A stretch of 64,000 nucleotides of DNA, taken from a virus. How positions within the stretch are numbered: position 1 is the first letter of the stretch; every line of letters starts with the position of its first letter. Position numbers and translations under genes: made by a program. Below the pieces are notes generated by a model. The model did not search any database and was not told the DNA's origin. It worked only from the letters and a program-made list of their open reading frames with translations. Positions 6,982-49,694 of the stretch are shown here, in pieces. The stretch spans positions 1-64,000 of IMG/VR virus record IMGVR_UViG_3300027782_006468; one strand, written 5' to 3'.

Positions 6982-6988
6982 TTGTGCC

Positions 6989-25273: not shown

Positions 25274-25291
25274 TTCCTTATATATAAGGAA
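25274..25291. promoter_or_regulatory. 18-bp perfect palindrome upstream of acidic-repeat gene
   Basis: TTCCTTATATATAAGGAA, perfectly self-complementary, lies 25 bases before the ATG at 25317 and just ahead of the AGAGGAG ribosome site. It contains a TATA-rich centre that could be a -10 element, so an operator over a promoter is plausible. Not seen elsewhere in the window. Confidence 0.4.
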
Positions 25292-25316: not shown

Positions 25317-26285
25317 ATGGCGTTTAAGAAATTTAGAGAATATTTAAAAGACGAAAAAAATATCGTTGAAAAACCAGAAGTGCAAAAAGTTCCCGACTAT
25401 AAAGGACCTTCTAGCTCTGCTCCACCACAAGCAAAAATGGATAAAAATGCTGGTGGTCATGGTTACAAGGGTTCTGCAAAGCCTTACAGTGCAGGGAAAA
25501 ATGCTGCCAATCCAAACAAATCAGAAAAAGGATTTGCACACGAAGGCGACAAAGATCTGAAATATGAACCTAAAGTCGATGTCGATACTAAAGATCCAGC
25601 AAAAGGCGAAGAACTTAAATCTTGGCATAAATCCAAAAGTGTATCTGAATGGCTCCAAAAAACACGCAAATTAAGCAATGCTGGCTTTATAAAAGGAATG
25701 CAAAATGAAGGTATTGCCTATGGAGTTATAAAAGAAACTATAACCGAATGTGCAAAATCAAATAGAAATGTCGCTCAACTTGTCATGGAAATGAAACGAA
25801 ATAAATTGCTTAAATCTTTGATTTCTGAGATTTGCAGTCACGAATCTGCAATTCCTGCGATTCTTTCAGAAATCAAAAAAAATAGTTTGTTCTTAAAGTA
25901 CTTAAATGAATTTCATGATATGGACCATGATGAAAATAATAGTGATGATGAAGAACCTATGGAAATGGATGATGAAGAACCTATGGAAATGGATGATGAT
26001 GAATCCATGGGTGATGACGATGAATCCATGGGTGATGACGATGAATCCATGGGTGATGATGATGAATCCATGGGCGATGACGATGAATCCATGGATGATG
26101 ACGATGAATCCATGGGTGATGATGATGAATCCATGGGTGATGATGATGAATCCATGGGTGATGACGATGAATCCATGGGCGATGATGATGACGAATCTGC
26201 TCTTTCCAACCCAATTGGAAAACACCATGCAAGAAAAGCATTGAAAAAAATGGGACCACCACCCGGTCCTTCTAGTGAATTCTAA
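25317..26285 (+). CDS. Acidic-repeat protein with T4-CTS-like leader
   Basis: A 322-residue protein. The leader MAFKKFREYLKDE resembles the capsid-targeting leaders of T4 internal proteins. A Pro/Lys/Gly-rich disordered part follows, then a helical domain (about 105-200) and a long acidic tract with two MEMDDEEP units and nine DDDESM[GD] heptads (about 226-288). The end is basic and Pro-rich. Strongly acidic, leader-bearing proteins form the scaffold core in T4 (gp67, gp68); a scaffold or internal head protein is proposed. AGAGGAG precedes the ATG, with an 18-bp palindrome upstream. Confidence 0.6.
   Translation: MAFKKFREYLKDEKNIVEKPEVQKVPDYKGPSSSAPPQAKMDKNAGGHGYKGSAKPYSAGKNAANPNKSEKGFAHEGDKDLKYEPKVDVDTKDPAKGEELKSWHKSKSVSEWLQKTRKLSNAGFIKGMQNEGIAYGVIKETITECAKSNRNVAQLVMEMKRNKLLKSLISEICSHESAIPAILSEIKKNSLFLKYLNEFHDMDHDENNSDDEEPMEMDDEEPMEMDDDESMGDDDESMGDDDESMGDDDESMGDDDESMDDDDESMGDDDESMGDDDESMGDDDESMGDDDDESALSNPIGKHHARKALKKMGPPPGPSSEF
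25992..26180 (+). repeat. 21-bp tandem repeat, nine copies (DDDESMG)
   Basis: Nine in-frame copies of a 21-base unit coding for DDDESMG (one copy ends in Asp). Units differ only at synonymous third positions (GAT/GAC, GGT/GGC) and the one Gly/Asp change. The near identity means recent expansion or homogenisation, and copy number probably varies between relatives. Confidence 0.9.
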
Positions 26286-28302: not shown

Positions 28303-31300
28303 ATGATAGATCCAAAACTGGTAGAAAATTGGAATATAATTTTCGCACTTGCCGACAAAGCTTGTGGGCATTTCGCAACATATGAAGCAATAGTCCTTGT
28401 GCCACGACCTTGTACCGGAGGGTCAAGTGCTTATTGGACTCTTGGTACTTCTTGTCCAGATGGTTGCACATCTTCTCCTCCTTCTGAATTGCCAACAAAT
28501 CCTCCATGCGATCCTAATTACCCTGATAATGGAACGGAAAATGACATAATCGGGTGCTGCGGAGGGATAGTTGAAGTCGAATGCACTGGAACCTGCTGTA
28601 ACTGTGGTGGAGTTCAATGCGAACCATCAGAGACATGCTGCGACAATGTTTGCGTGGACTTGCAAACGGATCATGACCATTGTGGCGGTTGCCCTATAGT
28701 TTGCGAACCTTCAGAAAGCTGCAAGAATGGTGTTTGCAAAGGCGCTTGTGCTTCGAGCAACTGCTCATGGACTTGGAGCGAAGGCTGTCAGGCTGATTGT
28801 GCTTATGTCCTCCTTGATGGTGTGTATGTGCAGAATCAATTTTGCACAGAAGGATCAAATTGCATTTGTCCTGCCGCTCCTGCCGTAACCGAATCATCAC
28901 CACTTTATGTATACATTTCTTGTGTTGGAAATCCAAGACCATCGGGTGTTTGGTCACAGACTTCGACATGCCCACAGGGATGCACCTGTCCAGAAGAAGC
29001 ACCAACGACAAATGGAACGACAAATGGTCAAGTTATAACCCATGAATGCGTCAGTTGCTCCCCTCCATGCGGAGAAGGACAAGACTGCTGCGGTGGCGAA
29101 TGCAAAAACATATATGAAGACAGCAATAATTGTGATGGTTGCGGAAATGTTTGCCCTGAAGCAACACCAACTTGCTGCAATGGCGAGTGCTGTGTGTCAA
29201 ACAATTGTTGTTCGGTTGATGGAACAAATACTTGTATTGATGTTATGAATGATCCAAATCATTGTGGTGATTGCATAACATTTTGCAGCGGTCCAGAAAC
29301 TACAACGCCACAAAAGTGTTGCCATGGCGAATGCAAATTCACAGAAACAGATAATGAAAATTGCGGATCTTGTGACTTTCCTTGTCCTGTCGGATACACA
29401 TGCTGTTTTGGTGTATGCAAAGAACTATATGGTGATGATCGCTTGAACTGTGGCGATTGTGGTAAAACTTGCCCTGTCGGAGAGTTTTGTAAAGATGGCA
29501 ATTGCGTAGACCCTTGTACGCTGGAGGAATGCTCATACACATGGGATGCACAAACATGCACATTCATGTACAATAACCCAAATGGGTATAAAATATGTTC
29601 TGGAACTGCGGTCATGAAATGGGTTCCAACTGGACCTCCTAGCGACCCTGATTCAATAACTGGTACATGTCCGGGTCGTTGGGATACAGTAGTTCCATGC
29701 GAATATTCAGATAACTGCGGTTGTATAAATGGGTATGGGTTTGAACAAACTATTGGACCATGCTGGGAATATACACAAGAATGCTATTGTGGTCAGAGAA
29801 ATGATGTAATCACTCCATGTGGCGCAATTTTCCCTGTTCTAGATCCAGTTATAGGTTGGGCAGGAGGAACATGGGAACAGTTAACCGACTGCGATGGTTG
29901 TCCAAAACCAGTAGATCCTCCTGCAATACCAGCCTGTATGGGACAAACTTACAGTTTCAACTGTGCAGGATCTTGGATCTACAGACCATGCCCAAGCTGC
30001 GTATGCCCAATAAACGAGCCACTTCGAGAAGGAACACCAAATGAAAAAGTTTCTTCTCCCTGTAAAAACTGTGATCCAGCTTGTGGTGCCAATCAAAAGT
30101 GTTGCAATCATGTTTGTAAAAACATACTTACAGATGTTCGTAATTGCGGAGATTGCGGAAGAGATTGCGGATCTGCTGCGGGAACCGCTTGCTGTAGGGG
30201 AACATGCGTAAACACACTTACAGAAGAACTTTACTGCGGAGGTTGCAATACCGTTTGTGCATGGTCAGAAACTTGTTGCAATGGTTTTTGCAAAGATACT
30301 CACACAGACCCTGCTAACTGTGGTAGTTGCGGACATCCTTGTGCTGCTGGCGAAGTTTGCTGTAATAGTTTTTGCGTAAACACAAATACCGACAGAAATA
30401 ACTGTGGAAGTTGCCCATTTGTATGTCCCAACGCAGATAAGTGCATTGACGGAAGATGCGTTCCATGCGACCCCCCATGTCTAGAAGCTGGAACCGCTTG
30501 CTGCAACAATTCATGCATCGACATATTGTCTGACGAGAACAACTGCGGTGGTTGCAACATACCCTGTGCTGGCAAATGCTGCAATGGGTCTTGCGTATTA
30601 GATTTGAACACCATGTACAACTGTGGTGATTGCGGAATAGCGTGTCCGCAAATGATCAACCAGATCAATCTGTGGCAGTGCTGCAATGGTCAGTGCAAGA
30701 ATCTAAAAACTGATCCAGAAAACTGCGGTTTTTGCGGAAGAGTATGTCAAGAGCCTCCGGGTGACACATTTAAAGTTCCAAAATGTTTCTTGGGAAACTG
30801 TGCAGAACCAGAATGTGTATGTTTGGGAGGGGAAACCCCCGGACCTGACGATGTTGTTTTCGTATCCACATGCCTTGGGAACACGATAAGCTGTGAGGGG
30901 TCTTGTTATTTTGAGAATGTGGGCGGAAGTTGGGTTCTTCATGAAGAGCCGGGCGGAACTGGATTTTCTGGATCTTGCGGAAAAGAACCAGACTACACAT
31001 ATTGTGTTGATGACAAATATGCCTGTGTTGGAGATATATATTATTGCGTAAAACCCATAGAAGGACAAGATATGCCAACTTATTGTATACCAAAACCATC
31101 ATTTGACCCATTAGCACAAGCACTAATCGGATCGTATATCGGAGCAGAAAACTGTGCTGCTGGTTGCAGCGGGGATGGAAGCTGTCCAGACGGTTGTGCA
31201 AACGGATTGACCTGTTGTAATACGGAATGCGTGGACACGCAAACGGACAGTGCCAATTGCGGTGGTTGTGGTGGCGGTCCTTGTGCCTCTGATGAGACTT

Positions 31301-34300
31301 GCAAAGACGGAGCTTGCACGGGTTGCCCTTCTCCATGTGCCGAAGACGAATCGTGCTGCGAAGGAGGAACGACATGCTGCAAGGTCTGCTGTAATGATGG
31401 GTGTTGTGCGGATACCGATCATTGCGGAGAAGGTGGTGCATGCACTCCATGCGAATGTACCGCTGGACAAACCTGCTGCGGTCCTAATTGTTGCGATCCG
31501 GGAAAAGAATGCTGTGGTTCTGGAAGTAGTGCAACATGTTGCACCGGAGATCAATACTGCGATGGAACTGGACACTGCGCATCATGCAACCCAGTATGCT
31601 ACCCGAACGAAACATGCTGCGGTGCGTCTGGATGTATAGCAAACAAGTGTGGCGACTGTCCTAATTCGTGTCCAGAAGGAATAGTTTGCTGCGGTCTTCC
31701 TCACCACGAGGTGTGTTGCGGCGAAGGTCAAACTTGTGTCGATAATAAATGTTACGGATGTACGCCTCCTTGTTCGGAAAGTCAAGATTGCTGCGATGAG
31801 GTGTGTACCGAACTTGGAACCGACACAGATTGTACTGGTTGCGGTGCAGCTTGCGGAGAAGGAACAAAATGTTGCGGTGGCTCATGCATAGATGTGATGG
31901 ATGATGTGAACAATTGTGGTGGTTGCGGTGTCGTGTGCGAGGAAGATGGTGCAACTCCTCTTTGCTGCGATGGAACTCCGACAGCAAATGGAACGAATGA
32001 AAATTGCTTGAGTTGCGGAGACACAGCCGATCCAGACAATGCGACAAACCCTACATCATGCTGTCCTAAAGCAGTTGTTGTTGCTGGCGCTCCAGACACC
32101 TCGACTTTCTTTGTTACCGCTACAAACAGTGACGACAAGAATTGCGGTGGTTGCGGAAATGTTGCTGACACATCGCCACAAGTGCAAGAAAAATGCTGTG
32201 CGGGTGAAATCGTTAGCCTTTTGACTGATCCAGACAACTGTGGAGGGTGTGGCGTTAGGGTTGTTGATCCTATGAGTTGCTGTCCAAGTTGGGGTCCGCC
32301 AAATCAGTTTGGCGATCTACCAACACCAACCTCTGGTCCAGTAAACACACAAACAGACAACGACCATTGCGGCGGTTGCAACATCCCATGCAATCCAATA
32401 GAAACTGGTGATGACTGCCCACCTCCCGGCGCTCCACCAACGACAAAATGCAAGGATGGCACATGTGTGCCATGCGGAACATGCAAGCTTCCGACAGAAC
32501 AACAACAAGCACAATTGTTGGGATCTCAACCAACTGTATGGGGGTCACACACGACCATACCATGCACCTATGACGGATGTCCTATGCCGGTAACCGATCC
32601 GCCAACTCCTGCCCCTCCGGGGAAAACATGCTTCGGTGGCTGTGACTACAAAGCGGTAGGAAATGTTGGAAACCTGTCATGGGAACTGGTTGGTTGCGAA
32701 TGCTACGACTCTTGCACACTTCCAGAATGCAACGCCTCAAATCCACATGCCACTCCATGTCCAAGTGTTGGAACCTGTTCTGGAGAAGGACCTTGCGGCG
32801 GATGCCTTTATGACGACTATGACCATCCTTCTGCATACAAATGCTTCGCGCCATGGGGTCATGATACTGTTAGCTGCGGGAGTCTCTATAACTATAGTAG
32901 TACATTTGGCTATTGCTGTACGAAAGACGCAAATCATCCAAATGGCGGAGTTCTATGTCTTAGTGGCAGTTGTTCAGGTGCTGCGGGAGACTGCGAACCT
33001 TGCGGCGGATCATGTGCCGCAGGACTTACATGTTGCGGGGTTTTTCCGAATGATGTGTGTTTGAACCTGAAAACGGATGAAAGTCATTGCGGATCATGTA
33101 CGAATGTTTGTGCCGCAGGAGAGACATGCTGTAATAGCTCATGTAAAAATACCAACACAGACAATAACAATTGTGGCGGTTGCGGTATAAAATGCAGTGG
33201 AGTTTCGGAATGTTGCAATGGCAGCTGCAAAGTTCTAAACACTCCAACTAATTGTGGTGCTTGCGGAATAGTATGTACTGTCCTTGAACCACTCTGTTGC
33301 AACAATAACTGCACACCGTCTGATGAATTCAACTGCGGAGGGTGCGGAAGAACATGTGATGCTGGTGAAAAATGTTGTGATGGTGAATGCACAGAGGTGA
33401 TGGGCGATGACGAATCTAACTGCGGTGATTGTGGCTTTACTTGTGCTTCTAGTGGAACTTGCTGCTCTGGCGAATGTATCGAAAACCAATGCGGAACATG
33501 TCCTACTGCATGTACCGAAGGTCAGGGATGTTGTGGTACGCCTCCAAATCTAACTTGCACCGATCTTGGAACAGACGAAAACTGTATCAGTTGTGGCAAT
33601 GCTTGCGCTGCAGGAACGAAATGTTGCTTTGATGGAGTTGAAAACTTATGCATATCAGTAATGGGTGCTGATAAAAATAACTGTGGCGATTGTAACATAA
33701 TTTGTGAAAATAATGAACGATGTGAAGACGGTGTATGCATAAATTTAAGTGAAGGGTGTGATCCGGAATGTGTTGAGGGAGAAGAATGTTGCGAAGGAAC
33801 TGCCTGTTGTAGTCTGCCAGAATTTCAATGTTGCTCTGGCTCATGTACTGCCGTTTTCTCTTTCCAAACAGATAGTTCCAACTGCGGAAGTTGTGGAAAC
33901 GCTTGTGCTGCTGGCGAGCAATGTTGCAATGGCGATTGTATTGCCACTAGCTCTTTCCAAACAGATGAATCTAATTGCGGAACTTGTGGTAACGCTTGTT
34001 CCGGAAGCCAAACTTGTTGCTCTGGCTCATGTATCGCCACTAGCTCTCTCCAAACAGATGAAGCAAACTGCGGAACTTGCGGAAACGCTTGTGGTGCTGG
34101 TGAAACATGTTGCTCTGGTGTTTGTAAAGCACTTCAAACAGATGAAGCTAATTGCGGAACTTGCGGAAACGCTTGTGGTGCTGGTCAAGAATGTTGTAGT
34201 GGTGTTTGCAAAGCCGTACAAACTGATAGTTCCAACTGCGGAACTTGCGGAAACGCTTGTTCCGGAAGCCAAACATGTTGCTCTGGATCATGTATCGCCA

Positions 34301-36267
34301 CTAGCTCTCTCCAAACAGATGAAGCAAACTGCGGAACTTGCGGAAACACTTGTTCCGGAAGCCAAACATGTTGCTCTGGATCATGTATCGCCACTAGCTC
34401 TCTCCAAACAGATGAAGCAAACTGCGGAACTTGCGGAAACGCTTGTGCTGCTGGTGAACTATGTTGTTCTGGTGTTTGCAAAGCCGTACAAACAGATGAA
34501 GCTAATTGCGGAACTTGCGGAAACGCTTGTGCTGCTGGCGAACTATGTTGTTCTGGTGTTTGCAAAGCCGTACAAACAGATGAAGCTAATTGCGGAACTT
34601 GCGGAAACGCTTGTTCCGGAAGCCAAACTTGCTGCTCTGGATCATGTATCGCCACTATCTCTCTCCAAACAGATGAAGCAAACTGCGGAACTTGCGGAAA
34701 CACTTGTTCCGGAAGCCAAACATGTTGCTCTGGCTCATGTATCGCCACTAGCTCTCTCCAAACAGATGAAGCAAACTGCGGAACTTGTGGTAACGCCTGT
34801 AGTGCTGGCGAACTATGTTGTGGTGGTGTTTGTAAAATCGTACAAATAGATGAAGCTAACTGCGGAACTTGTGGTAACACTTGTGGTCTTGGTCAAGAAT
34901 GTTGTAGTGGTGTTTGTAAATCATTACAAACAGATGAATTTAATTGCGGAACTTGCGGAAACACTTGTGGTGCTGGCGAACTATGTTGTTCTGGTGTTTG
35001 CAAAACCGTACAAACAGATGTAATAAACTGCGGAACTTGTGGTAACACTTGTGGTCTTGGTCAAGAATGTTGTAGTGGTGTTTGCACAGTATTTCAAATA
35101 GATGAAGACAATTGCGGAAGTTGTGGAAACGCTTGTGCTGCTGGAGAAACTTGTTGTAATAGCGTTTGCACAGTATTACAAACAGATGAAGGTAATTGCG
35201 GAATTTGCGGAAACATGTGTGGTGCTGGTCAAGAATGTTGCTCTGGTGTTTGTAAATCAGTACAAACAGATGAAGCTAATTGCGGAACTTGTGGAACTGT
35301 ATGTGGTGCTGGTCAAGAATGTTGCTCTGGTGTTTGCAAATCAATACAAACAGATGAAGAAAATTGTGGAACATGTGGAACTGCATGTGCTTCTGGCTAC
35401 ACATGTTGCTCTGGTGTTTGTAGAAACACAGCAACCGATCTCAGCAATTGTGGAACATGCGGAAGCTCTTGTAGCGGAACATGTTGCAACGGCTTTTGCA
35501 AAGCGACATATGAGGATGAATTAAATTGTGGTGATTGCGGAATAGAATGTGCTGTTGGCGAAACATGTTGCTATAGCATCCTTTTGAACACTGGAGTTTG
35601 CAAAGCCGTACTAACAGATGAAGCTAATTGTGGAACTTGTGGAAACACTTGTGCTGCTGGTTACACATGTTGCTCTGGTGTCTGCAAAGCACTTCAAACA
35701 GATGAAGCTAATTGCGGAACTTGCGGAAGTGTATGTTCTGCTGGCTACACATGTTGTGATGGTGTCTGCAAAGCACTTCAAACAGATGAAGCAAACTGTG
35801 GAACTTGCGGAAACGCTTGTGCTGCTGGAGAAACTTGTTGCTCTGGTGTTTGTGCAAATACAGAAACAAGTTCATCTAATTGTGGATCTTGCGGACACGC
35901 TTGTGCTGCTGGAGAAACTTGCGAAGAAGGAATTTGCTCTCTGCCTCCACTAACAATAAAATTAGTTTTCCGTGCTTTCGCATGTGCAAGTAATTTTTCA
36001 AATCTTTCAAGTGAGCTTTCTGCTGGATCTAGAAGTGTTAGCTTCACAATCACTGTCAGTGGAACTACTTTTGCCAGTGGTTCTGTTTCAAACATTGGAC
36101 CCGGAGGAGTTGCAGCAACCTTAGCATCAATTACGATTCCAACAGGAACATCATTTAATATAAATATAAGTGGATATGCTGGATCTGCAATTATTGGTAG
36201 TACTAGAGCATCTGGTCAACTGACTTATACTGGTGCTGTTAAAACTGCAGATAATAATGCATGTTAA
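28303..36267 (+). CDS. Giant cysteine-rich repeat protein, 2654 aa
   Basis: About fifty copies of a 30-40 residue module run from residue ~70 to ~2540. Consensus: CC.G.C....TD..NCG.CG..C..G..CC, six or more cysteines per module. The first two thirds hold diverged modules broken by other Cys-rich domains (for example around 400-530 and 1390-1520); the last third has almost identical copies with EANCGTCGNAC. The final 100 residues (TIKLVFRAFACASNFSNLS onward) are a Ser/Thr-rich beta domain ending in Cys. No signal peptide or membrane helix. Similar repeats occur in proteins of myxobacteria and other environmental bacteria. A disulfide-stabilised long fibre or adhesin on the virion is the favoured guess. 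Base composition is richer in G+C than its surroundings. Confidence 0.85.
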   Translation: MIDPKLVENWNIIFALADKACGHFATYEAIVLVPRPCTGGSSAYWTLGTSCPDGCTSSPPSELPTNPPCDPNYPDNGTENDIIGCCGGIVEVECTGTCCNCGGVQCEPSETCCDNVCVDLQTDHDHCGGCPIVCEPSESCKNGVCKGACASSNCSWTWSEGCQADCAYVLLDGVYVQNQFCTEGSNCICPAAPAVTESSPLYVYISCVGNPRPSGVWSQTSTCPQGCTCPEEAPTTNGTTNGQVITHECVSCSPPCGEGQDCCGGECKNIYEDSNNCDGCGNVCPEATPTCCNGECCVSNNCCSVDGTNTCIDVMNDPNHCGDCITFCSGPETTTPQKCCHGECKFTETDNENCGSCDFPCPVGYTCCFGVCKELYGDDRLNCGDCGKTCPVGEFCKDGNCVDPCTLEECSYTWDAQTCTFMYNNPNGYKICSGTAVMKWVPTGPPSDPDSITGTCPGRWDTVVPCEYSDNCGCINGYGFEQTIGPCWEYTQECYCGQRNDVITPCGAIFPVLDPVIGWAGGTWEQLTDCDGCPKPVDPPAIPACMGQTYSFNCAGSWIYRPCPSCVCPINEPLREGTPNEKVSSPCKNCDPACGANQKCCNHVCKNILTDVRNCGDCGRDCGSAAGTACCRGTCVNTLTEELYCGGCNTVCAWSETCCNGFCKDTHTDPANCGSCGHPCAAGEVCCNSFCVNTNTDRNNCGSCPFVCPNADKCIDGRCVPCDPPCLEAGTACCNNSCIDILSDENNCGGCNIPCAGKCCNGSCVLDLNTMYNCGDCGIACPQMINQINLWQCCNGQCKNLKTDPENCGFCGRVCQEPPGDTFKVPKCFLGNCAEPECVCLGGETPGPDDVVFVSTCLGNTISCEGSCYFENVGGSWVLHEEPGGTGFSGSCGKEPDYTYCVDDKYACVGDIYYCVKPIEGQDMPTYCIPKPSFDPLAQALIGSYIGAENCAAGCSGDGSCPDGCANGLTCCNTECVDTQTDSANCGGCGGGPCASDETCKDGACTGCPSPCAEDESCCEGGTTCCKVCCNDGCCADTDHCGEGGACTPCECTAGQTCCGPNCCDPGKECCGSGSSATCCTGDQYCDGTGHCASCNPVCYPNETCCGASGCIANKCGDCPNSCPEGIVCCGLPHHEVCCGEGQTCVDNKCYGCTPPCSESQDCCDEVCTELGTDTDCTGCGAACGEGTKCCGGSCIDVMDDVNNCGGCGVVCEEDGATPLCCDGTPTANGTNENCLSCGDTADPDNATNPTSCCPKAVVVAGAPDTSTFFVTATNSDDKNCGGCGNVADTSPQVQEKCCAGEIVSLLTDPDNCGGCGVRVVDPMSCCPSWGPPNQFGDLPTPTSGPVNTQTDNDHCGGCNIPCNPIETGDDCPPPGAPPTTKCKDGTCVPCGTCKLPTEQQQAQLLGSQPTVWGSHTTIPCTYDGCPMPVTDPPTPAPPGKTCFGGCDYKAVGNVGNLSWELVGCECYDSCTLPECNASNPHATPCPSVGTCSGEGPCGGCLYDDYDHPSAYKCFAPWGHDTVSCGSLYNYSSTFGYCCTKDANHPNGGVLCLSGSCSGAAGDCEPCGGSCAAGLTCCGVFPNDVCLNLKTDESHCGSCTNVCAAGETCCNSSCKNTNTDNNNCGGCGIKCSGVSECCNGSCKVLNTPTNCGACGIVCTVLEPLCCNNNCTPSDEFNCGGCGRTCDAGEKCCDGECTEVMGDDESNCGDCGFTCASSGTCCSGECIENQCGTCPTACTEGQGCCGTPPNLTCTDLGTDENCISCGNACAAGTKCCFDGVENLCISVMGADKNNCGDCNIICENNERCEDGVCINLSEGCDPECVEGEECCEGTACCSLPEFQCCSGSCTAVFSFQTDSSNCGSCGNACAAGEQCCNGDCIATSSFQTDESNCGTCGNACSGSQTCCSGSCIATSSLQTDEANCGTCGNACGAGETCCSGVCKALQTDEANCGTCGNACGAGQECCSGVCKAVQTDSSNCGTCGNACSGSQTCCSGSCIATSSLQTDEANCGTCGNTCSGSQTCCSGSCIATSSLQTDEANCGTCGNACAAGELCCSGVCKAVQTDEANCGTCGNACAAGELCCSGVCKAVQTDEANCGTCGNACSGSQTCCSGSCIATISLQTDEANCGTCGNTCSGSQTCCSGSCIATSSLQTDEANCGTCGNACSAGELCCGGVCKIVQIDEANCGTCGNTCGLGQECCSGVCKSLQTDEFNCGTCGNTCGAGELCCSGVCKTVQTDVINCGTCGNTCGLGQECCSGVCTVFQIDEDNCGSCGNACAAGETCCNSVCTVLQTDEGNCGICGNMCGAGQECCSGVCKSVQTDEANCGTCGTVCGAGQECCSGVCKSIQTDEENCGTCGTACASGYTCCSGVCRNTATDLSNCGTCGSSCSGTCCNGFCKATYEDELNCGDCGIECAVGETCCYSILLNTGVCKAVLTDEANCGTCGNTCAAGYTCCSGVCKALQTDEANCGTCGSVCSAGYTCCDGVCKALQTDEANCGTCGNACAAGETCCSGVCANTETSSSNCGSCGHACAAGETCEEGICSLPPLTIKLVFRAFACASNFSNLSSELSAGSRSVSFTITVSGTTFASGSVSNIGPGGVAATLASITIPTGTSFNINISGYAGSAIIGSTRASGQLTYTGAVKTADNNAC
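33841..35890 (+). repeat. Near-identical tandem DNA repeats in the giant gene
   Basis: About 90-120-base units coding for the QTDEANCGTCGNAC module are almost identical at DNA level, in two interleaved types: SGSQTCCSGSCIATSS and AAGELCCSGVCKAV. Words such as GATGAAGC and TGCGGAACTTG recur dozens of times. The upstream modules of the same gene are far more diverged, so this part expanded or was homogenised recently. Confidence 0.85.
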
Positions 36268-39559: not shown

Positions 39560-41137
39560 TTATTTCTTTTCTCGAATTCTTACATTAGCAGGATCATTAT
39601 CGAAACATTCGAATACGACATCAGTACCATCATGACCTTTGGTGGAAAGAAAAACATCATTTCCCCAAATGAATCTTAGACCAACCAATACATCTCGGAC
39701 ATAAGGCTCATGAAGCGGTCTGCCTTCAAATGTATGCTCAAGCATCAGATAGCCCTTACCACGATAATTAGGCTCTGTTAAACGAATATCTGGCAGTCCT
39801 CCATTTACATGGCGAGCCATCAACAATTTTTTTATCTTATTGTAATCATGACTTTCAAGAATCGTCTCTCCGCTTGGATAACGCTTATGTTCAAAGTATT
39901 CTTGTTCTCGACAGAAATCCTCAGTAAAAAATTCATGTATTAAAGTTAGATCATCGTAATACTTTCTAACTTCAAAAATCTTTTCCTTACCAAGCATTGC
40001 CTTGGTATCCCATTTTTCTTTCTTACTAGAATTTGTGCAATCATCCCATTCATTGCCGAATTGACCTTTATCCCAACGATTGCGAATATCGGACAAAAGA
40101 TTATATCCTAGCTTATAAGGATTGGTGCTATATTTTCCACCAAGAACACCCATCTTGTGTGCAGCGTATTCAATGATTCCAGAATCATGAGTCTTTTGAC
40201 CCAAGCCGACATAACCCTGTTCTGCCATGATAACATGGTCAGTCATAGAAGCCCAGCCCTCGTTTAATACTTTGGTTTGTCTCTGTGGGAAAAAATAAAT
40301 TGATTCTTCATAGATCATAGACATGATATCTTGTTGCCAAGGCTTAAGTGGAGCATTATCACGCAAAAATCCAAATATATCTTTAACTGGTTCTATAAAA
40401 AATCCAAGTTCCTCTGCAAGATCTTTATCTTTTACCTTTTCATTTTCTCTTTCTTTGAACTCTTTTGTGTTGATGTAATTATCCATATAGAAGCGATCAC
40501 TATCAACTTTAAGTCTTTTTGGAAATCTATAATTTCTTTTATCAATAATATTTCTATCTTTGATAACTTTTTGATGCCAAGCCGATGCTCCATCAACCAA
40601 AGTATCGATGCGAAGTAAATAATCAAGAAATTCAGTAACCTTTTCCTTGCCCCATCTAGCCATATATTTTTTAATACGGCTACTATGATTTGCCATGTTG
40701 TTCAACATGTTTGTATCAGTAGCAGAAAAGTGAATATTATTTTTAAAGAAATCATTATGACCAGTGGCGTGAGCGATAACAGTCAGATGATCCAATAATG
40801 TGTTGCTATCTAAGCAATAGATGTAACATGGCGATGTATTGATTACCATCTCATATATTTTATGCATTTGATTTTCATATCCACGCTGCAATTCTTCATA
40901 TTGCATGCCAAATGACCAATGTGGATATCGTACTGGAAAACCACCATACGCTGCTACTTCGGATATTTCATCGTAGGTAAGAAGCTGCACTACGGTTGGA
41001 TAAAAGTCCAAACCCCAATCTTTACAAACATTCAAAATTATTTGAGCATATTCTTTTAATTGTTTTGGAAGCTGAACTCCGGGAATTGTGTTATCGCCAA
41101 TAAGAAGTGAAGAACCATGCATGAACTTATTAGACAT
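39560..41137 (-). CDS. spoVR: SpoVR-family protein
   Basis: A 525-residue protein matching SpoVR/YcgB over its length (usually 470-510): YPHWSFGMQYEEL, NTSPCYIYCLDSNTLLDHL, IAHATGHNDFFKNN, WAEEGYVGLGQ-type segment EQGYVGLGQKTHDSG, RNRWDKGQFG and the C-terminal RGKGYLMLEHTFEGRPLH. In Bacillus SpoVR is needed for spore cortex; in enterobacteria YcgB goes with YeaG-YeaH in starvation response. The biochemical role is unknown. It is the third gene of a set with PrkA and YhbH. Confidence 0.92.
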   Translation of the reverse strand: MSNKFMHGSSLLIGDNTIPGVQLPKQLKEYAQIILNVCKDWGLDFYPTVVQLLTYDEISEVAAYGGFPVRYPHWSFGMQYEELQRGYENQMHKIYEMVINTSPCYIYCLDSNTLLDHLTVIAHATGHNDFFKNNIHFSATDTNMLNNMANHSSRIKKYMARWGKEKVTEFLDYLLRIDTLVDGASAWHQKVIKDRNIIDKRNYRFPKRLKVDSDRFYMDNYINTKEFKERENEKVKDKDLAEELGFFIEPVKDIFGFLRDNAPLKPWQQDIMSMIYEESIYFFPQRQTKVLNEGWASMTDHVIMAEQGYVGLGQKTHDSGIIEYAAHKMGVLGGKYSTNPYKLGYNLLSDIRNRWDKGQFGNEWDDCTNSSKKEKWDTKAMLGKEKIFEVRKYYDDLTLIHEFFTEDFCREQEYFEHKRYPSGETILESHDYNKIKKLLMARHVNGGLPDIRLTEPNYRGKGYLMLEHTFEGRPLHEPYVRDVLVGLRFIWGNDVFLSTKGHDGTDVVFECFDNDPANVRIREKK

Positions 41138-41155
41138 CTTATAAATCCTTAAATT

Positions 41156-42352
41156 TTACTTTGATTTTTGATTACCCATCAAACTTTTAATTGCATCTAA
41201 AATTTGATTATTTCTAATTTCATCATCACGCATATTCGGATCATTAGGATTTCCATTTCCAAAGTTAATTTCGGTGGTACGAATATTATTCTTATCAAGC
41301 TCTCCACTTTCCAACGCCTTATCGACATGATACTTAACACTATTGGTATAGTTGTAAGGCAAAATTTGTGTGATCCCGACTAAATTAATATCCTTTTCTG
41401 GAAATGATTCTTTTAATGTGTTGATAAATACTTGATTATCATCGCCCCAATTATCTCCATCCGTAAAGTAAAAAACATAAATGTTCCACTTTTGCGGAGG
41501 GTATCTATTCTCAAATTGCTTTTGAATAAATTTCAAAGCAGAAGAACAAGTTGTTCCTCCACCATATCGGTAGTTATAAAACTTTTCTTCATCTACTTCC
41601 ATGGCAAGAGAATCGTGCCACACAAAAAGTCGATCAACTCTTTTGTAAAATTGTCTAATCCAAACATCAATCCACCAAGCCATATCTGAGACGATCTCGC
41701 ATTTAGCTTGATCCATCGATCCAGATCCATCACGGGCATAAATGATCAAAGCATTGCTAGAAGGAACTTTAACTTCTTTATATTGCCTATAACGCTTGTC
41801 ACGCTTAATTGGCTTGATTGTCTTCATGGGCATGCTAAGACCCGGAACTATTTCAAAATTATTAGCAGTTCCATCTGCACATTGCCTTTTTAAAGCTTCG
41901 ATAAAAGTTCTTCTATTATGACGCAAAGATTCGGGACCAACCAAAGATATATTATTATATTTGATTTTTACTTCATCGAATGTATCATTTACTTTTGGCT
42001 TTAAATTTGGCAATTCCAGTTCATCTTGCATGAACTTCAATACAGTTTCCAAATCAAGACTTACGGTGATTCCTTCACCTTCATCCTGAGTTGCTCCATT
42101 GCCCTTTCCTTTTTTACCCTTATCAATGACATCGCCATCCTTGCCTTTACCTCTGCCGATGCCATTGCCGTTATCACCATAAAGAATTTGAGGAATATCA
42201 ATTTTTGGAATTGTGATAGAAATTTTACCTCGTTTGCCACGAGATTTTACTATCTGTCCAGATTTGATAAACTTTTTAAGTGCTTTACGAAGTTTGCCTG
42301 AGACAACATCTATAAAGTCTTTATGATCTTCTTCAATTCTGCGTGGACACAT
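41156..42352 (-). CDS. yhbH: YhbH/YeaH-family (DUF444) protein
   Basis: A 398-residue protein. The N-terminal part (RRIEEDHKDFIDVVSGKL, LPRI-like IPKIDIPQILYG), a Gly/Lys-rich linker (GNGIGRGKGKDGD) and a C-terminal von Willebrand A-like domain are visible. The latter has the metal site DGSGSMDQAKC and FYFTDGDNWGDD. The family is always linked to PrkA kinase and often SpoVR; it may be a partner or target of the kinase. It lies between the two, 6 and 18 bases away. Confidence 0.9.
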   Translation of the reverse strand: MCPRRIEEDHKDFIDVVSGKLRKALKKFIKSGQIVKSRGKRGKISITIPKIDIPQILYGDNGNGIGRGKGKDGDVIDKGKKGKGNGATQDEGEGITVSLDLETVLKFMQDELELPNLKPKVNDTFDEVKIKYNNISLVGPESLRHNRRTFIEALKRQCADGTANNFEIVPGLSMPMKTIKPIKRDKRYRQYKEVKVPSSNALIIYARDGSGSMDQAKCEIVSDMAWWIDVWIRQFYKRVDRLFVWHDSLAMEVDEEKFYNYRYGGGTTCSSALKFIQKQFENRYPPQKWNIYVFYFTDGDNWGDDNQVFINTLKESFPEKDINLVGITQILPYNYTNSVKYHVDKALESGELDKNNIRTTEINFGNGNPNDPNMRDDEIRNNQILDAIKSLMGNQKSK

Positions 42353-42358
42353 GTTCTA

Positions 42359-44431
42359 TTATTCCTCGGCTAGATCGCCTCTTGCAAATATAGATCCAAC
42401 AAAATCCAGAACATCAGTTGCAGATCTTTCGTTATAACCATACTGTTTGATAAGGCGAGTTTTAATCGCATCTATTTTTTCTTGAATATCCTTATCAACC
42501 ACAGTTGCTCCGCTAACATTAAGTGCGGACAACTTAATGGTATCTTTTACATCTTCAAAAAGCTTTGCTTCTAAAGCTTTTCTCAATTTTGGATTAGAAT
42601 CCCAACTAAATTGCTTGTGCTTGATTGCAAGGTCGCCAATAAAAGCAGCTATCTGCCTACGGAAATCATCAGCACCCGGTTCTGGTATATCGATCTTAGA
42701 TTCAATGGCTCGCATCAATCTTTCGTCAGGCTTTCTATCTTGCCCTGTGATTGGGTCTTTAATCTTACTTTTGTTGATATACGCCATGATATTATCAATG
42801 TAATTGGCACAAAGTCGAATGATCGCATCTTCGTCACCAACAAGAGCCTTCTGAACTTCGGCTTTTAAAATTTCAGTCAACTTCTTAACCACCAAATCAA
42901 TGCATGTGATATATCGACCAACATCATCCTTATTGTTCAACAAAGAACTTCCTTCTAAACCTTCACGAAGCTCATTCAGAACCATGAACATATTTACATA
43001 GTCATGATTATTGGCTAAACAATTTGAAAGCTTATCTTGAACATAACGAACTGAAACACCACGGGTCATACCCTCATCAGGATACCTATCCTTCAATTCC
43101 TTGACTTGCTCTTCTGTCCATCCAGAAAGAAGCTTGCCGTCATAAAGCTCTGCTTTTTCGACTAAGGAAATTTTACCATCCTTATCATCATGAAGTCTGG
43201 TTAGAACTGCCCATAGAGCAGCAACTTCAAGTGTGTGTGGTGCGATATGTTGTTTGACCCTATCTACACCATAATCTTTTTCCAAGATTTTAAGTTCTTC
43301 GCCCCATCGAAGAGTATAAGGAACATCGATCTTTACAGTCCTATCACGCAACGCTTCCATATATTGGTTGCTTCGAAGCCTTTCGTATTCAGGACTATTG
43401 GTATGACAAAATATTGCCTCATCAATAGAAACTTGTGCAAACTTCTTTGGCTTAATACTTTGTTCTTGGCTTGCACCCAATAGATCATATAAAAATGCTT
43501 GATCTAACTTCAAAGCTTCTATAAACTCTATCATTCCCCTGTTTCCGACACAAAATTCTCCGTCAAAATTAAAGCTTCTTGGGTCAGAGTCAGAACCAAA
43601 AGTGCTGATGCGACTAAAATTAATATCGCCTGTGAGTTCTGTAGAGTCTTGATTTTTTTCATCTTTAGGTTGGAATGTGGCGATACCAACACGATCTGCT
43701 TCGCTATATGTTTTTCGAATTACTCGAATATGTTTTTCAAGAACTTTTTCGAGATCTCCATCATACCTAATCAAAAGTTCTTTCATGAAGAACTTGCATC
43801 TTGGATCAAGCTCTCCCTCACACTTCAATACATATAGTTCATTTCTTTCTTCTGCAGATACAGACTCAGAAAGAACTCGATTCAAATCATCCATAATGGG
43901 TTTACGAATTTCTGGCGGGAGCAACTTAAGTGGCTGCTCATGCATTGGGCATTCATCTTCTTCTTTGACATAAATTCCATCTTGTCCAGTCGGAAGATTT
44001 ATCCATTTGAAAGTATACCAAGCACCGGCATCGGTTGTAGAATAGTTTTCCAATTCTCGCTTGAACAATCTACAGATTGTAGATTTAGAGCTACCTACAG
44101 GTCCGTGCAAAAGAAGAATTCTTTTTTCAGTACCAAAATATCCAGCTGCACCTTTGATGAACTTAACCAAAGAATCCTTAGTTGGTGTCAGACCAATGAT
44201 TGGACATTCCTGATTATCAAAGAAATTATAATGTTTGTATGTCTTTCTATATTCTTCAACGGCATGACAGCCCTTTTCCATAATCATGTCGTAAATCATT
44301 TGCCAAGAATTACGGACAAGTCTTGGCTGCTGATAGCACAGATCAATGTATTCGGAAAATGACATTTCTCCGTTAAGAATTTTAAATTTGCTTTGATTGA
44401 ATCTACCTATAAATCTTTTAAGTTCGTCCAT
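42359..44431 (-). CDS. prkA: PrkA-family serine protein kinase (YeaG-like)
   Basis: A 690-residue protein (family usually about 630-645). The N-terminal AAA+ ATPase domain has Walker A LLHGPVGSSKSTICR (about residue 103-117), a lid segment and the motif ATFQPKDEKNQDSTELTGD. A C-terminal kinase-related part follows (from about 420). RFNFDGEFCVGNRGMIEF and 'ANCDEAIFCHTNSPE'-type segment are conserved. PrkA phosphorylates proteins in stationary phase or sporulation, and is also described as a Lon-like protease in Bacillus. It is the first gene of the operon; a TATAAT box lies at about 44474-44479 on the minus strand. Confidence 0.92.
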   Translation of the reverse strand: MDELKRFIGRFNQSKFKILNGEMSFSEYIDLCYQQPRLVRNSWQMIYDMIMEKGCHAVEEYRKTYKHYNFFDNQECPIIGLTPTKDSLVKFIKGAAGYFGTEKRILLLHGPVGSSKSTICRLFKRELENYSTTDAGAWYTFKWINLPTGQDGIYVKEEDECPMHEQPLKLLPPEIRKPIMDDLNRVLSESVSAEERNELYVLKCEGELDPRCKFFMKELLIRYDGDLEKVLEKHIRVIRKTYSEADRVGIATFQPKDEKNQDSTELTGDINFSRISTFGSDSDPRSFNFDGEFCVGNRGMIEFIEALKLDQAFLYDLLGASQEQSIKPKKFAQVSIDEAIFCHTNSPEYERLRSNQYMEALRDRTVKIDVPYTLRWGEELKILEKDYGVDRVKQHIAPHTLEVAALWAVLTRLHDDKDGKISLVEKAELYDGKLLSGWTEEQVKELKDRYPDEGMTRGVSVRYVQDKLSNCLANNHDYVNMFMVLNELREGLEGSSLLNNKDDVGRYITCIDLVVKKLTEILKAEVQKALVGDEDAIIRLCANYIDNIMAYINKSKIKDPITGQDRKPDERLMRAIESKIDIPEPGADDFRRQIAAFIGDLAIKHKQFSWDSNPKLRKALEAKLFEDVKDTIKLSALNVSGATVVDKDIQEKIDAIKTRLIKQYGYNERSATDVLDFVGSIFARGDLAEE

Positions 44432-45787: not shown

Positions 45788-45943
45788 TTATTTTTTCTTT
45801 TTATTCAAGTGCAAAGGAGAAAAGAGGCTGAAAATTGGCTTTGCTGGCTTTACACTTTTAGACATTAATTGTGTAGGAGAATTTGAACCTCTAGAATTGA
45901 AGCCATACATCTTCTCATTTAAAAACTGCTGAAAAGTTTTCAT
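45788..45943 (-). CDS. 51-aa protein with T4-CTS-like leader
   Basis: A short gene read from the ATG at 45943. The first ten residues, MKTFQQFLNE, are close to the T4 internal-protein capsid-targeting sequence MKTYQEFIAE, with the cleavage pattern Leu-x-Glu at the same place. A basic tail follows (residues 11-51), ending HLNKKKK. It lies three bases downstream of another leader-bearing gene. Proposed: a small head protein injected with DNA. Confidence 0.6.
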   Translation of the reverse strand: MKTFQQFLNEKMYGFNSRGSNSPTQLMSKSVKPAKPIFSLFSPLHLNKKKK

Positions 45944-45946
45944 TTA

Positions 45947-46237
45947 TTACTTTGGAACTCCAGTCGTAGCTTTAGCCTGATCTTTTTGAGCAGCATCCAA
46001 TTGATTTTTAATTGTTTTTTGTAATGCTGCTGGATTAAGTGCGACTGGACTTTTAGATTTCAACATCAGATTTTTAACTTCTGTATCTTTTGTGATCTTG
46101 TCGGCAATTGCACTTGGATTTTTTCCAATCTTTGGGTCTGCAGATAGCATCGCTGATTTTCCTTGAATGGCTCCAGAAAGTTGTGCATCAAAATCACCAT
46201 CTTCTGTAATTTTCAACCAATTTTTGAATGAATTCAT
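45947..46237 (-). CDS. 96-aa protein with T4-CTS-like leader
   Basis: Begins MNSFKNWLKITEDGDF: aromatic and hydrophobic residues at the positions of the T4 leader, then Ile-Thr-Glu as a protease site. The remainder is Ala/Lys-rich and helical (VALNPAALQKTIKNQLDAA). AAGGAG lies before the ATG. Suggested as a packaged head protein together with 45788. Confidence 0.6.
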   Translation of the reverse strand: MNSFKNWLKITEDGDFDAQLSGAIQGKSAMLSADPKIGKNPSAIADKITKDTEVKNLMLKSKSPVALNPAALQKTIKNQLDAAQKDQAKATTGVPK

Positions 46238-46278
46238 ATTTACTCCTTATAAACATATATATAGAAGAAAGGAATAAA

Positions 46279-46482
46279 ATGAAAAAATGTTGTTTAACTA
46301 GAGTTTTGTTTGGTATGATTTTTGGTTTTTTTCTAAGTATTTTCGTAATGTATTCACAACTTTCTGGTGTCAAAAATCAACTTAAACATGATCATAAAAC
46401 ATGTAGCATGTGTGTATGTGAAAAAAAATGCAATTGTCCTCACGAAAATGACAAATGTAAAAACAAATGCTTGTGTGATTAA
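46279..46482 (+). CDS. Small membrane protein with Cys-rich tail, 67 aa
   Basis: The ATG at 46279 follows an AGAAAGGA site. A transmembrane helix (RVLFGMIFGFFLSIFVMYS) is followed by a tail with nine cysteines (CSMCVCEKKCNCPH, CKNKCLC), a likely metal or disulfide cluster, probably in the periplasm. Function unknown. Confidence 0.55.
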   Translation: MKKCCLTRVLFGMIFGFFLSIFVMYSQLSGVKNQLKHDHKTCSMCVCEKKCNCPHENDKCKNKCLCD

Positions 46483-47867
46483 ATTATTTTATTGATAATT
46501 GAATCGATTATATTTGTTGTTGACAATCCATCAACAAATGGAGCAAAAACAACCTTTCCAGCATGATCTCTGCCAACTACTTCCTTGTCAATATAATCAT
46601 GACCTTTTACCAAAACCTCTGGATTTAAATGCTTGATGATTTCAATTGGTGTGTCTTCTTCAAAACAAGCAACATAATCAACACATTCCAATGCAGCGAG
46701 CATTTGCATTCGATGTTGAATTTTATTCACAGGGCGACCCGGCTTTAACTTTCCAACCGACTCATCACTATTGACAGCAACAAGAAGTTTATCACCTTGC
46801 TTTTTAGCAAATTCTAAACTCTCTATATGCCCTGCATGTAAAATATCAAAACATCCATTTGTAACGACCAGCTTAAAATCTCTTTTTTTAAATATCTTGT
46901 AATCAACAATTTTGGAAGAACTTCCAATAACTGTTTTTTTAATTGTGTCGATATCTAATGGCTTGTTGTGTTTTTCTGTAACATAAATTAAACCCATAGA
47001 AAATGCGAATTCAGCAGCTTCTTTGAGTGGTATGTTGTTGCCCAAGCATAATCCCAAAAATGCAATAAAACAGTCTCCTGCACCAATAACACTATTGGCT
47101 TGTTTGTCTGATTTTGGATTCTTATATTCAAAGTAATTTTCATTAAATCCAAAAAAACCACTTCCTTCTGAAGTTATAATTACAGACTTGCAATTAGTTT
47201 GTTTTATTATTGAATCAATTTGCTTAGGCTTTTCTTTTTCATTGGTAATCGCACAAGCTTCTTGTGTGTTTGGTTTTATTAGTGTGCATCCTTTCCACTT
47301 TGTAATATCTTTTTTTGGATCAACAATCCTTATGGAGCATGGATGTTTTTCTGCCAAAGAAGAAACAATTGAATTAGCAAATAATCCTTTGTCATAATCA
47401 GAAAATATCAAAACATCAAAATCTTTTGACATAATTTTTTTGCAAAGATTTTCAGAAACTTCCTGCAATTCATCTTTGTTCATGCCATAATTATTTTTCT
47501 CGACATCCCAACGATATGTCGGAAAATCCGAACTATAAAATCTCTTTTTTCTTGGAACCAAATAAGGGCTTATACTCACCGATAATGATGTATCAATTTT
47601 ATTTTTTTGTAAAATTTCATTCGCAGAATCATCTAAGAAAGAACATAGAAATGTATTTTTATTTATATTTTTAAGCTGATATGCAACATTAGCGGCTCCG
47701 CCCGGAAGAATTGCACTTGGCATGCATTCCTCTGAATGCATTACTGGAATTGGAAATTCTGGAGATATTTTTCGAACATTTACATTGAAATATTCGTCTA
47801 GCATAGAATCTCCAACGATTCCAATTTTTAAATTGCTAGAATTAATTGATTCTATAATATTCTTCAT
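46479..47867 (-). CDS. hldE: Bifunctional sugar kinase / nucleotidyltransferase, HldE (RfaE)-like
   Basis: A 462-residue protein with two domains. The N-terminal ribokinase-type (PfkB) kinase (1-300) has GGAANVAYQL and the signature IGAGDCFIAFLG. The C-terminal cytidylyltransferase-like domain (335-462) has NGCFDILHAGH with the HxGH motif and DDYVACFEEDTP-like segment. HldE makes ADP-heptose in two steps for lipopolysaccharide. E. coli HldE is 477 residues. The ATG at 47867 is chosen because the upstream frame starts with TTG close to thyX. With the glycosyltransferases it suggests a phage glycan pathway. Confidence 0.88.
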   Translation of the reverse strand: MKNIIESINSSNLKIGIVGDSMLDEYFNVNVRKISPEFPIPVMHSEECMPSAILPGGAANVAYQLKNINKNTFLCSFLDDSANEILQKNKIDTSLSVSISPYLVPRKKRFYSSDFPTYRWDVEKNNYGMNKDELQEVSENLCKKIMSKDFDVLIFSDYDKGLFANSIVSSLAEKHPCSIRIVDPKKDITKWKGCTLIKPNTQEACAITNEKEKPKQIDSIIKQTNCKSVIITSEGSGFFGFNENYFEYKNPKSDKQANSVIGAGDCFIAFLGLCLGNNIPLKEAAEFAFSMGLIYVTEKHNKPLDIDTIKKTVIGSSSKIVDYKIFKKRDFKLVVTNGCFDILHAGHIESLEFAKKQGDKLLVAVNSDESVGKLKPGRPVNKIQHRMQMLAALECVDYVACFEEDTPIEIIKHLNPEVLVKGHDYIDKEVVGRDHAGKVVFAPFVDGLSTTNIIDSIINKII

Positions 47868-47913
47868 ATGTGCAGCCCAATAATAGATGTTGCTATTATT
47901 TGAGTTACACAAT

Positions 47914-48798
47914 TTATTTTTCTATATTTTTAACAGACAAGCCAAGCATTGCAGCTTTAGTTTTCCATTCTTCCTGTTCTCTTTTATTGTCTGTTTTTAA
48001 AGAATTTACAGATATTCCTCCCAAGGATGAGACCATTGCATCTACTTCCAATTTGGTCAATCTAATCGCTCCACGATGCTCATGATAATCTTCCCAAGCT
48101 TCAACAGCCCAAGGAACAATAGGCTTGATAAGTTCTAGCATAGCATTTGCAAACACTCTAATCTCCCATTGAGCATGAGCATCGCAACGCAAGGCTAAAA
48201 AATGCAAAAGATTATGCAGATCCACTTTCCAATACCACTCTGTATACAAATTGACTGGTAGGAGCATTCTGGCTTGTTCTCTAGCAACACCATTTTGAAT
48301 TGCTTTTTCGTATTCCTCATATGATTGATTGCAGATAAAATCTATTTTTTCAATAAATCCATAGGCATCAGTTTCATTTATTGATCCACTACCTCCTTGT
48401 TTGTTTACTGACGATTGTTGTCTCACATTTTCAATTTCTGGTTTATAGAATTCATCCTTCATCATTGAATATCTTCCACTGTATTCATTCAAATTTGCAG
48501 TTCTGTGGCGCACCATTTGTCTGGCGATGAATATCGGTAATTTAACAGAAAATTTGAATTCAATCATCTCGAATGGAGTTGTGTGCTTGTGACGAAGTAA
48601 ATAACGAATTAATCCTCTATCTTCATTAACAGTTTTAGTTCCATCTCCATAAGAAACTCTAGCAGCTTGGACTATTGCGTAATCTGCGGTCTTCCTATCA
48701 TCTGGAACAAGTCTTGGCATAACATCAAGAATCGTCACATGACCCTTGTCCAAGCATTTAATTGTTTTTTCAGAAACATTTGTCAAAACATCATGCAT
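47914..48798 (-). CDS. thyX: Flavin-dependent thymidylate synthase
   Basis: A 294-residue enzyme. The ThyX signature is RHRTANLNEYSGRY (RHRxxSxxxxSxR-type, with N for the first S). Other conserved parts are FEMIEFKFSVKLPIF and the C-terminal active region (EWYWKVDLHNLLHFLALRCD). It makes dTMP from dUMP using FAD, NADPH and methylenetetrahydrofolate. Slightly longer than common ThyX (220-250). Belongs with dNMP kinase and dCMP deaminase in the phage nucleotide supply. Confidence 0.93.
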   Translation of the reverse strand: MHDVLTNVSEKTIKCLDKGHVTILDVMPRLVPDDRKTADYAIVQAARVSYGDGTKTVNEDRGLIRYLLRHKHTTPFEMIEFKFSVKLPIFIARQMVRHRTANLNEYSGRYSMMKDEFYKPEIENVRQQSSVNKQGGSGSINETDAYGFIEKIDFICNQSYEEYEKAIQNGVAREQARMLLPVNLYTEWYWKVDLHNLLHFLALRCDAHAQWEIRVFANAMLELIKPIVPWAVEAWEDYHEHRGAIRLTKLEVDAMVSSLGGISVNSLKTDNKREQEEWKTKAAMLGLSVKNIEK

Positions 48799-48928
48799 GA
48801 GATAACTCCAAAATAGTTAAATCTTATTCTATGAATTTATATTATAAAAAAAATAAAGGGAAATGAGAATAGCAATTAGAACCAACCTATGTCTCCCATG
48901 ACAACATCTGGCAGATTAGGAAACATTT

Positions 48929-49132
48929 TTAAAATTTTACTTTTTTTCTTTTTTTTTTCTCAAGATCATCAACAGTTATCAAACTTGGCGATTGTCTAGT
49001 CACTGTTCCAATGCCAATAGGTCTAGCAAATTTCGCAACATCACCAGTCGATGTCATTCCGCCACCACCCGCAGCTGGTGCTGCTGCTGTTGCGACTTCA
49101 TTTTGTTTCAACCATTCTTTGAACGATATCAT
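48929..49132 (-). CDS. 67-aa protein with T4-CTS-like leader
   Basis: Read from the ATG at 49132, which overlaps the stop of the upstream leader-bearing gene (ATGA). Starts MISFKEWLKQNEVATAAAPA: the aromatic/hydrophobic pattern of the T4 leader, with Glu at residue 12. An Ala/Gly-rich segment and a basic C terminus (KKKRKKVKF) follow. Suggested packaged head protein. Confidence 0.6.
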   Translation of the reverse strand: MISFKEWLKQNEVATAAAPAAGGGGMTSTGDVAKFARPIGIGTVTRQSPSLITVDDLEKKKRKKVKF

Positions 49133-49605
49133 GTCATTCCTCCCATACCTGCATCTGGAGGCATACCACCTGCATCTGCCGGTGGTGGTGCAGGAACCCA
49201 TGCAGTTGTCAAAAATTTTACAAGTTCATCACGACTTAAATAATATTTATCTTTATCTGGTGTAGCCCTATTAAGGCTTCCATTTTTGAGAAAGCTTCTC
49301 ATTCCCTTGTTTGGCTTTAAACGAATATATGCTCCATTTTTAGAAATCGAGTCTGGATCGATTTCCCAAGAAGATGCTTTATATGACATTTCGTGATTTG
49401 GCTTGCCCATCATGAAATGAGTTGAAACCCAAGGCTCTGAAGCCAAAAGTGAAGATAAATCTTTCCATTTAATTCCAAACTCATCTTCGAGTGTATCAAT
49501 ATAATCATTTCCAACTGGCGTAGATTCGCTGCCTTCATCTTCTGATTTTTTCTCAGATGAGGGGTCCATTTCTTCAATATATTTTTTGAATCCTGCGAAG
49601 CTCAT
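49129..49605 (-). CDS. 158-aa protein with T4-CTS-like leader
   Basis: The ATG at 49605 opens MSFAGFKKYIEEMDPSSE, with Ile-Glu-Glu at residues 10-12 as in T4-type cleavage sites. An acidic linker (SEKKSEDEGSES), a folded middle (DEFGIKWKDLSSLLASEPWV) and a Pro/Gly/Met-rich tail (GGMPPDAGMGGMT) follow. Longer starts exist to 49632 (TTG). Coupled to the 67-residue gene downstream by ATGA. Confidence 0.55.
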   Translation of the reverse strand: MSFAGFKKYIEEMDPSSEKKSEDEGSESTPVGNDYIDTLEDEFGIKWKDLSSLLASEPWVSTHFMMGKPNHEMSYKASSWEIDPDSISKNGAYIRLKPNKGMRSFLKNGSLNRATPDKDKYYLSRDELVKFLTTAWVPAPPPADAGGMPPDAGMGGMT

Positions 49606-49694
49606 ATTTCTATATATAATATTACCTGCCAACTTATGAAGAACAATTAATTAAAATAAACTCTTGTACTGTTCCATAGGAATTTTGTTTTAGG

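Follow-up and report, generated by a model that had tools for sequence, protein, structure and literature searches.

Otherwise unrelated proteins of a huge-phage lineage begin with the same kind of short N terminus, and we consider it quite likely that this common start is a capsid-targeting sequence of the T4 type, greatly expanded into a modular system. In phage T4, the internal proteins IPI-III and Alt carry a capsid-targeting sequence that is cut by gp21. In the mechanism we propose, a tag of 10-15 residues, M-x(0-4)-F-K/x-x-[WFY]-[LIVF]...[hydrophobic]-x-E, would guide the protein bearing it into the scaffold core as the prohead grows. A gp21-type (S77) protease would then remove the tag after the Glu, and the body would stay in the head with the DNA and be ejected into the next host. 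In this lineage the tag has spread to dozens of unrelated bodies, among them many enzymes as well as basic or acidic proteins that look structural, and it would thus work as a general loading code.

The window analysed here, bases 1-64000 of a 76,939-base (76.9-kb) virus contig, is a piece of a huge T4-type phage genome. A nucleotide search of the window against known phages gave no match. The nearest near-complete relative fetched was LR756511.1, a 595-kb uncultured phage whose PrkA-like protein is 68% identical. The other relatives compared were the viral contigs G001 (381 kb), G002 (341 kb), G003 (165 kb) and G004 (136 kb); the ThyX of G004 is identical to that of the window and its leader genes are near-identical. 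A further contig, L002 (metagenome 3300009183), is near-identical to the window, with an identical ThyX. Several other features of the window were also recorded. Genes for SpoVR, DUF444 and the PrkA serine kinase lie side by side at 39560-44431 (-), a phage-borne bacterial stress operon, and a cluster at 4080-9057 (-) encodes DnaJ, translation initiation factor IF-3, a thiamine-pyrophosphate enzyme and a small protein that resembles GroES but has no Pfam match. The 2654-aa protein at 28303-36267 (+), Cys-rich close to its N terminus, is probably a tail or surface protein.

Leader-bearing genes of the window and contig

Gene starts were called with a simple purpose-written gene caller. The preliminary description had quoted the first residues of six proteins sharing a T4-like leader, and all six open reading frames begin with these residues at the ATGs assigned to them. 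Four of the genes adjoin thyX. They encode a 51-aa basic protein (45788-45943 (-); leader MKTFQQFLNE, codons 45914-45943; predicted cut LNE/K), a 96-aa Ala/Lys-rich protein (45947-46237 (-); leader MNSFKNWLKITE; predicted cut ITE/D), a 67-aa protein (48929-49132 (-); leader MISFKEWLKQNE; predicted cut E/VATAA) and a 158-aa protein (49129-49605 (-); leader MSFAGFKKYIEE; predicted cut IEE/M). The other two are a strongly basic protein of 172 aa (10737-11255 (-); body net charge +25; leader MIKFSDWVKIRE; predicted cut IRE/S) and a strongly acidic one of 322 aa (25317-26285 (+); body net charge -43, with DDDESMG repeats; leader MAFKKFREYLKDE). As had been reported, [IL]-x-E occurs at residues 8-12 in four of the six (LNE, ITE, IEE and IRE), whereas MISFKEWLKQNE and MAFKKFREYLKDE lack it. 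The set is larger than the six quoted: a seventh gene in the window, encoding a 146-aa protein with the leader MINLNFKMFFESE (1202-1642 (+)), had been overlooked, and two more tagged proteins are encoded on the remaining contig beyond the window, at 71607-72407 (-) (leader MYSFKKFISLKE) and 72438-72710 (+) (leader MKRFKVWIEAKQE). Also beyond the window, G000 72704-73468 (-) encodes an AstE/AspA or M14-like zinc hydrolase; its second ATG would give MQFKEFFKSD, making it a possible further tagged enzyme.

The bodies behind the leaders of the window do differ, being small and basic, acidic or Ala/Lys-rich, with one HExxH protein in addition. Searches of PHROGs and Pfam with the six window proteins returned no significant match. 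In the 1202-1642 body the zinc metallopeptidase signature HExxH is invariant (HEIAH); fold comparison gave a weak zincin likeness that was not significant (E 0.035 or worse). In the structure models the leader is of low confidence and the adjoining body is better ordered, as in the 1202-1642 protein (pLDDT ~31 for residues 1-10, body ordered); for the 71607 protein the model was modest and no fold match was found. At the thyX locus, the leaders are conserved among relatives down to the Glu, and it is the bodies that have diverged. The 45788 family retains F-Q-Q-F-L-x-E with a variable x (LNE, LIE, LVE), the 48929 family keeps the E preceding [VI]-[AG]-T in the relatives listed with a variable leader length, and the 49129 family reads [IF]EE or IED. 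Likewise, the 10737-11255 orthologue G003_82261 retains its leader (MITFSNFLKVKE).

Enrichment, modularity and tagged enzymes

The preliminary description had made its reading depend on an excess of its pattern, M-x(1,4)-F-x-x-[FWY]-[ILV]-x(0,3)-[ILQ]-x-E, over shuffled N termini, and this excess is present: 4 of 89 contig genes match, against 0.01 after shuffling. A looser pattern, M-x(0,4)-F-x-x-[FWY]-[ILVF]-x(1,5)-E, gave 8 matches on the contig (0.21 shuffled, 0.05 at internal positions) and 31 among the 1079 genes of LR756511.1 (2.2 expected). The corresponding observed and expected numbers were 32 and 1.5 in G001, 12 and 1.5 in G002, and 16 and 0.8 in G003. With a weight matrix at a threshold of at least 8 bits, 157 N termini were found in five related genomes or fragments (9, 49, 46, 27 and 26 by record), compared with 5.1-5.8 by chance. 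The set is far larger than the window could show, with dozens of tagged proteins per genome and 25-49 per large record. Matrices trained on half of the records and applied to the other half retrieved 58 N termini where 3.0 were expected and 76 where 3.2 were expected. With their first 20 residues trimmed off, the tagged proteins sort into 121 unrelated body groups, indicating that the tag is modular; it is absent from some relatives of tagged enzymes, for example NUDIX proteins. Chance, gene-start bias or descent from a single gene family could be invoked for a short motif whose gene starts come from a home-made caller. We give this explanation almost no credence, given the roughly 25-30-fold excess over shuffled and internal controls, the enrichment out of sample, the number of body groups, and the retention of the leader among relatives as the bodies diverge.

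Pfam searches of the tagged bodies in relatives identified PolyA_pol, phosphoribosyltransferase, AAA_33 kinases, HAD_SAK_1 (RNA repair) and tRNA_lig_CPD; NADAR, NUDIX, cytidylyltransferase-like and C39 peptidase domains; and AstE/AspA-like hydrolase, methyltransferase, GP88 and DUF5661. The tagged NADAR protein of LR756511 starts at 521964 with MLTWTEFLE, and a second protein that looks similar, at 240511 of the same genome, is untagged. These enzymes bear on the reading that the tag docks assembly or structural parts on the prohead scaffold or capsid, the tagged proteins being head components and not injected cargo. Several bodies are indeed small, basic or acidic and free of enzyme signatures, like T4 core proteins, and the 25317-26285 family has the leader in all five of its members. 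We nevertheless regard this reading as unlikely, since many of the bodies are enzymes for which a part in assembly is not apparent, among them NADAR, NUDIX, PolyA_pol, AAA_33 kinase, tRNA_lig_CPD and C39 peptidase. If the tagged enzymes are cargo, they may form a preloaded kit for counter-defence or host takeover. This is a fair inference because RNA-repair and NAD-centred enzymes are counted as counter-defence functions in a jumbo-phage review (PMC7824862) and the T4 internal proteins have been described as protecting against host enzymes (PMC3012670).

Head genes, cleavage site and virion proteins

The window had been described as free of a head protease gene, and this holds for the whole 76.9-kb contig, on which neither an S77 nor an S78 protease was found; nor was a capsid gene found there. 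The absence of the protease is uninformative because the contig is a fragment. A gp21- or S78-type prohead protease had been proposed as the enzyme to look for in the complete genome. The gp21 alternative stood, with S77 proteases found in the relatives LR756511 and G002, and the S78 alternative did not, this type being absent from the contig and its relatives. Both LR756511 and G002 encode S77 (E ~1e-27) and gp23 (E ~1e-87), and the order of protease, coiled-coil scaffold and gp23 is that of T4. Neither S77 nor gp23 was found in G001 (381 kb), probably because it is a fragment. A second, diverged S77 copy lies at LR756511.1 242240-243133 (-) (locus L040), besides the capsid-adjacent one; a comparable diverged protease paralogue has been reported in SPN3US. 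A capsid-protein search yielded 36 loci, with S77 directly upstream in most. The 7.7-kb locus L230 carries an S77-scaffold-gp23 module and is probably from the window's phage or a close sibling, an assignment drawn solely from the metagenome it has in common with L002 (3300009183), a similar GC (0.355, against 0.346 in the window) and synteny.

The gp23 proteins of the clade keep L-[FIMY]-N-E followed by [VIT] near the site where T4 reads FLTE/A, so that hydrophobic-x-Glu is likely to be the clade's protease cut site, as judged from these sequences. Among the tagged proteins, [ILVF]-x-E occurs beyond the tag core in 59, compared with 38.5 +/- 5.0 after shuffling, and this enriched site agrees with that of gp23 in the clade. 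Two positions ahead of the first Glu, most tags have W, L, F, I, Y, V or M; the Glu itself is commonest at F+5 and F+8, and in many relatives P3 is W (WLE). An exact I/L-x-E site is not universal in the leaders.

Calibration on other phages gave four matches in T4, namely IPI, IPII, IPIII and an ORF of 54 aa located where gene 61.1 is annotated. Among cyanophages, S-CRM01 has 5-6 and P-SSM2 4-6; phiKZ has 0-1, which is at chance level, and phiYS40 0-2. A second huge phage, LR745206 (634 kb), has a weak S77 match. Separately, bases 100001-500000 of LR745206.1 show a Tyr-form leader, MIKKYxxFIxE, and 13 proteins there fit the T4 form where 0.25 were expected.

Virion proteomes are available for T4-like cyanophages. 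Published mass spectrometry of S-CREM2 (PMC10665884, Table 3) detects in virions 5 of the 8 proteins that score at least 6 bits with the huge-phage matrix. Of the 211 remaining proteins 47 were detected, and with structural proteins set aside the enrichment remains (p = 0.002). By the regular expression fixed earlier, the same data give 4 of 5 in virions (p = 0.003) and, when proteins shorter than 75 aa are left out, p = 0.014 on small counts; for non-structural proteins overall, p is 0.002-0.004, again on small counts. The leader proteins that this table places in virions are an SAM hydrolase (MKDFDSFLEE), an APH-like kinase (MKRFDAFLTEE), a cytidylyltransferase (MKNFSSFLTEA) and two that begin MQTFSMFFSED and MNFSEFNE. 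Similar N termini that score below the threshold are MKDLHSFLTE and, at residues 18-26 of a Cas9-like nuclease, RFASFMAEA. Two high-scoring proteins, one of them MNFKKWFKEW, were not detected in the virions. S-SM1 virions contain the cytidylyltransferase cluster T4-GC190 (PMC3037559); the P-SSM2 member of this cluster starts MKSFSQFLTE. The S-SZBM1 data (PMC9146016), with only 30 proteins detected, are shallower and weaker than those for S-CREM2: for the 50-kb stretch examined, one of three leader proteins, the cytidylyltransferase MRFRQFIIEA, was detected in virions, and two short ones were not. The text consulted on the S-CREM2 and S-SM1 virion proteins (PMC10665884, PMC3037559) makes no mention of a tag.

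The distribution of the tag and these virion data bear on the reading that it targets some other place, as a membrane-binding amphipathic helix or an import signal for the infection compartment, with no packaging involved. The core F-x-x-[WFY]-[LIVF] and its flanking charges could make a short amphipathic helix, to judge from the residues. We consider such targeting quite improbable, because the tag follows phages with S77 (T4, cyanophages, LR756511 and G002) and because phiKZ builds a compartment yet has no S77 match and a tag that is rare or absent. Moreover, leader proteins occur in S-CREM2 virions, and those T4 proteins that carry the leader are established internal proteins of the head (PMC3012670). 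Capsid targeting is the reading we retain, supported by the enrichment, the linkage to the protease and virion data from a related type of phage; packaging in this phage, removal of the tag and injection are inferred.

Upstream box and comparison with known systems

A box, [AC]TA[TA]ATA (TAWATA), scoring at least 6 bits, lies upstream of 86 of the 157 tagged genes (55%) and of 182 of 2329 other genes (8%; p = 1e-46). The box is similar to TAAATA in the late promoter of T4; the exact T4 late promoter, TATAAATA, was not enriched upstream of tagged genes. In tagged genes the box most often ends 4-5 nt before the ATG, and a Shine-Dalgarno-like motif is present in 7% of the tagged genes with such a near box, compared with 55-59% elsewhere. 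If the box is read as a -10 element, the transcript would start approximately at the ATG, and the tagged genes would yield near-leaderless late mRNAs. In the window, the near form occurs only at 49605, where a TATATA box (49611-49618 (-)) lies 5-7 nt before the ATG of 49129-49605 with no Shine-Dalgarno, an arrangement of the near-leaderless type. At the three other sites the box is 18-39 nt upstream and a Shine-Dalgarno is present: 18-20 nt before the ATG of 45947-46237 (46256-46263 (-), with the Shine-Dalgarno in between), 30-32 nt before that of 25317-26285 (25279-25286 (+)) and 37-39 nt before that of 1202-1642 (1157-1164 (+)). In LR756511 and G001-G003, 57 untagged genes also have TAWATA 4-5 nt before the ATG; the near box therefore marks a gene class and not the tag alone, and late genes of the near-leaderless kind may form a broader class.

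Taken together, a head tag and a late promoter that runs directly into the start codon could act as a plug-in cassette. It would load dozens of unrelated enzymes (RNA repair, ADP-ribose and NAD handling, peptidases), expressed from near-leaderless late mRNAs, into the head as a preassembled counter-defence and takeover kit. We offer this combined proposal tentatively, rating its chances at slightly below even. The tag suggests a natural protein-loading code, and the sequence rule would predict, among the uncharacterised proteins of huge phages, those that are carried in the head and are the first to act on the host. Hundreds of unknown genes would thereby be reduced to a testable list with many candidate enzymes of counter-defence. 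In the literature searched, which covers few subscription journals, we found no description of such a tagged set in huge phages, and a search for the leader strings returned no paper.

Other phages also load proteins into their heads. In phage P1, an N-terminal signal of DarB is sufficient for head entry; this is a different protein system and signal, and P1 apparently has no separate scaffold (PMC9024508). Phages phiKZ and SPN3US package many ejection proteins, some cut by a gp21-related protease, which is of the S80 type, cuts at S/A/G-x-E and removes propeptides mostly longer than 100 residues (PMC5694885). An identity with phiKZ-type ejection proteins was rejected, as the relatives match S77 and the leaders span 10-15 residues. 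Closer are the T4-like cyanophages (S-CREM2, T4-GC190), which have the same form of tag on proteins found in virions by mass spectrometry (PMC10665884, PMC3037559); unlike the huge-phage lineage, they have only ~4-6 tagged proteins per genome.

The likeness to T4 itself extends to the pattern of the short tag, which heads unrelated bodies in both and has Glu at the expected cut, and, in relatives of the window phage, to the shared order of S77 protease, scaffold and gp23. Where T4 has ~4 tagged proteins, the huge-phage lineage has 25-49 per large record. Furthermore, this lineage favours Trp at the second aromatic position, often places the E at F+5 or F+8, and has many enzyme bodies and a late-like box fused to the start codon. 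What is new relative to T4 is the scale, the enzyme content and an apparent coupling to a late-like promoter.
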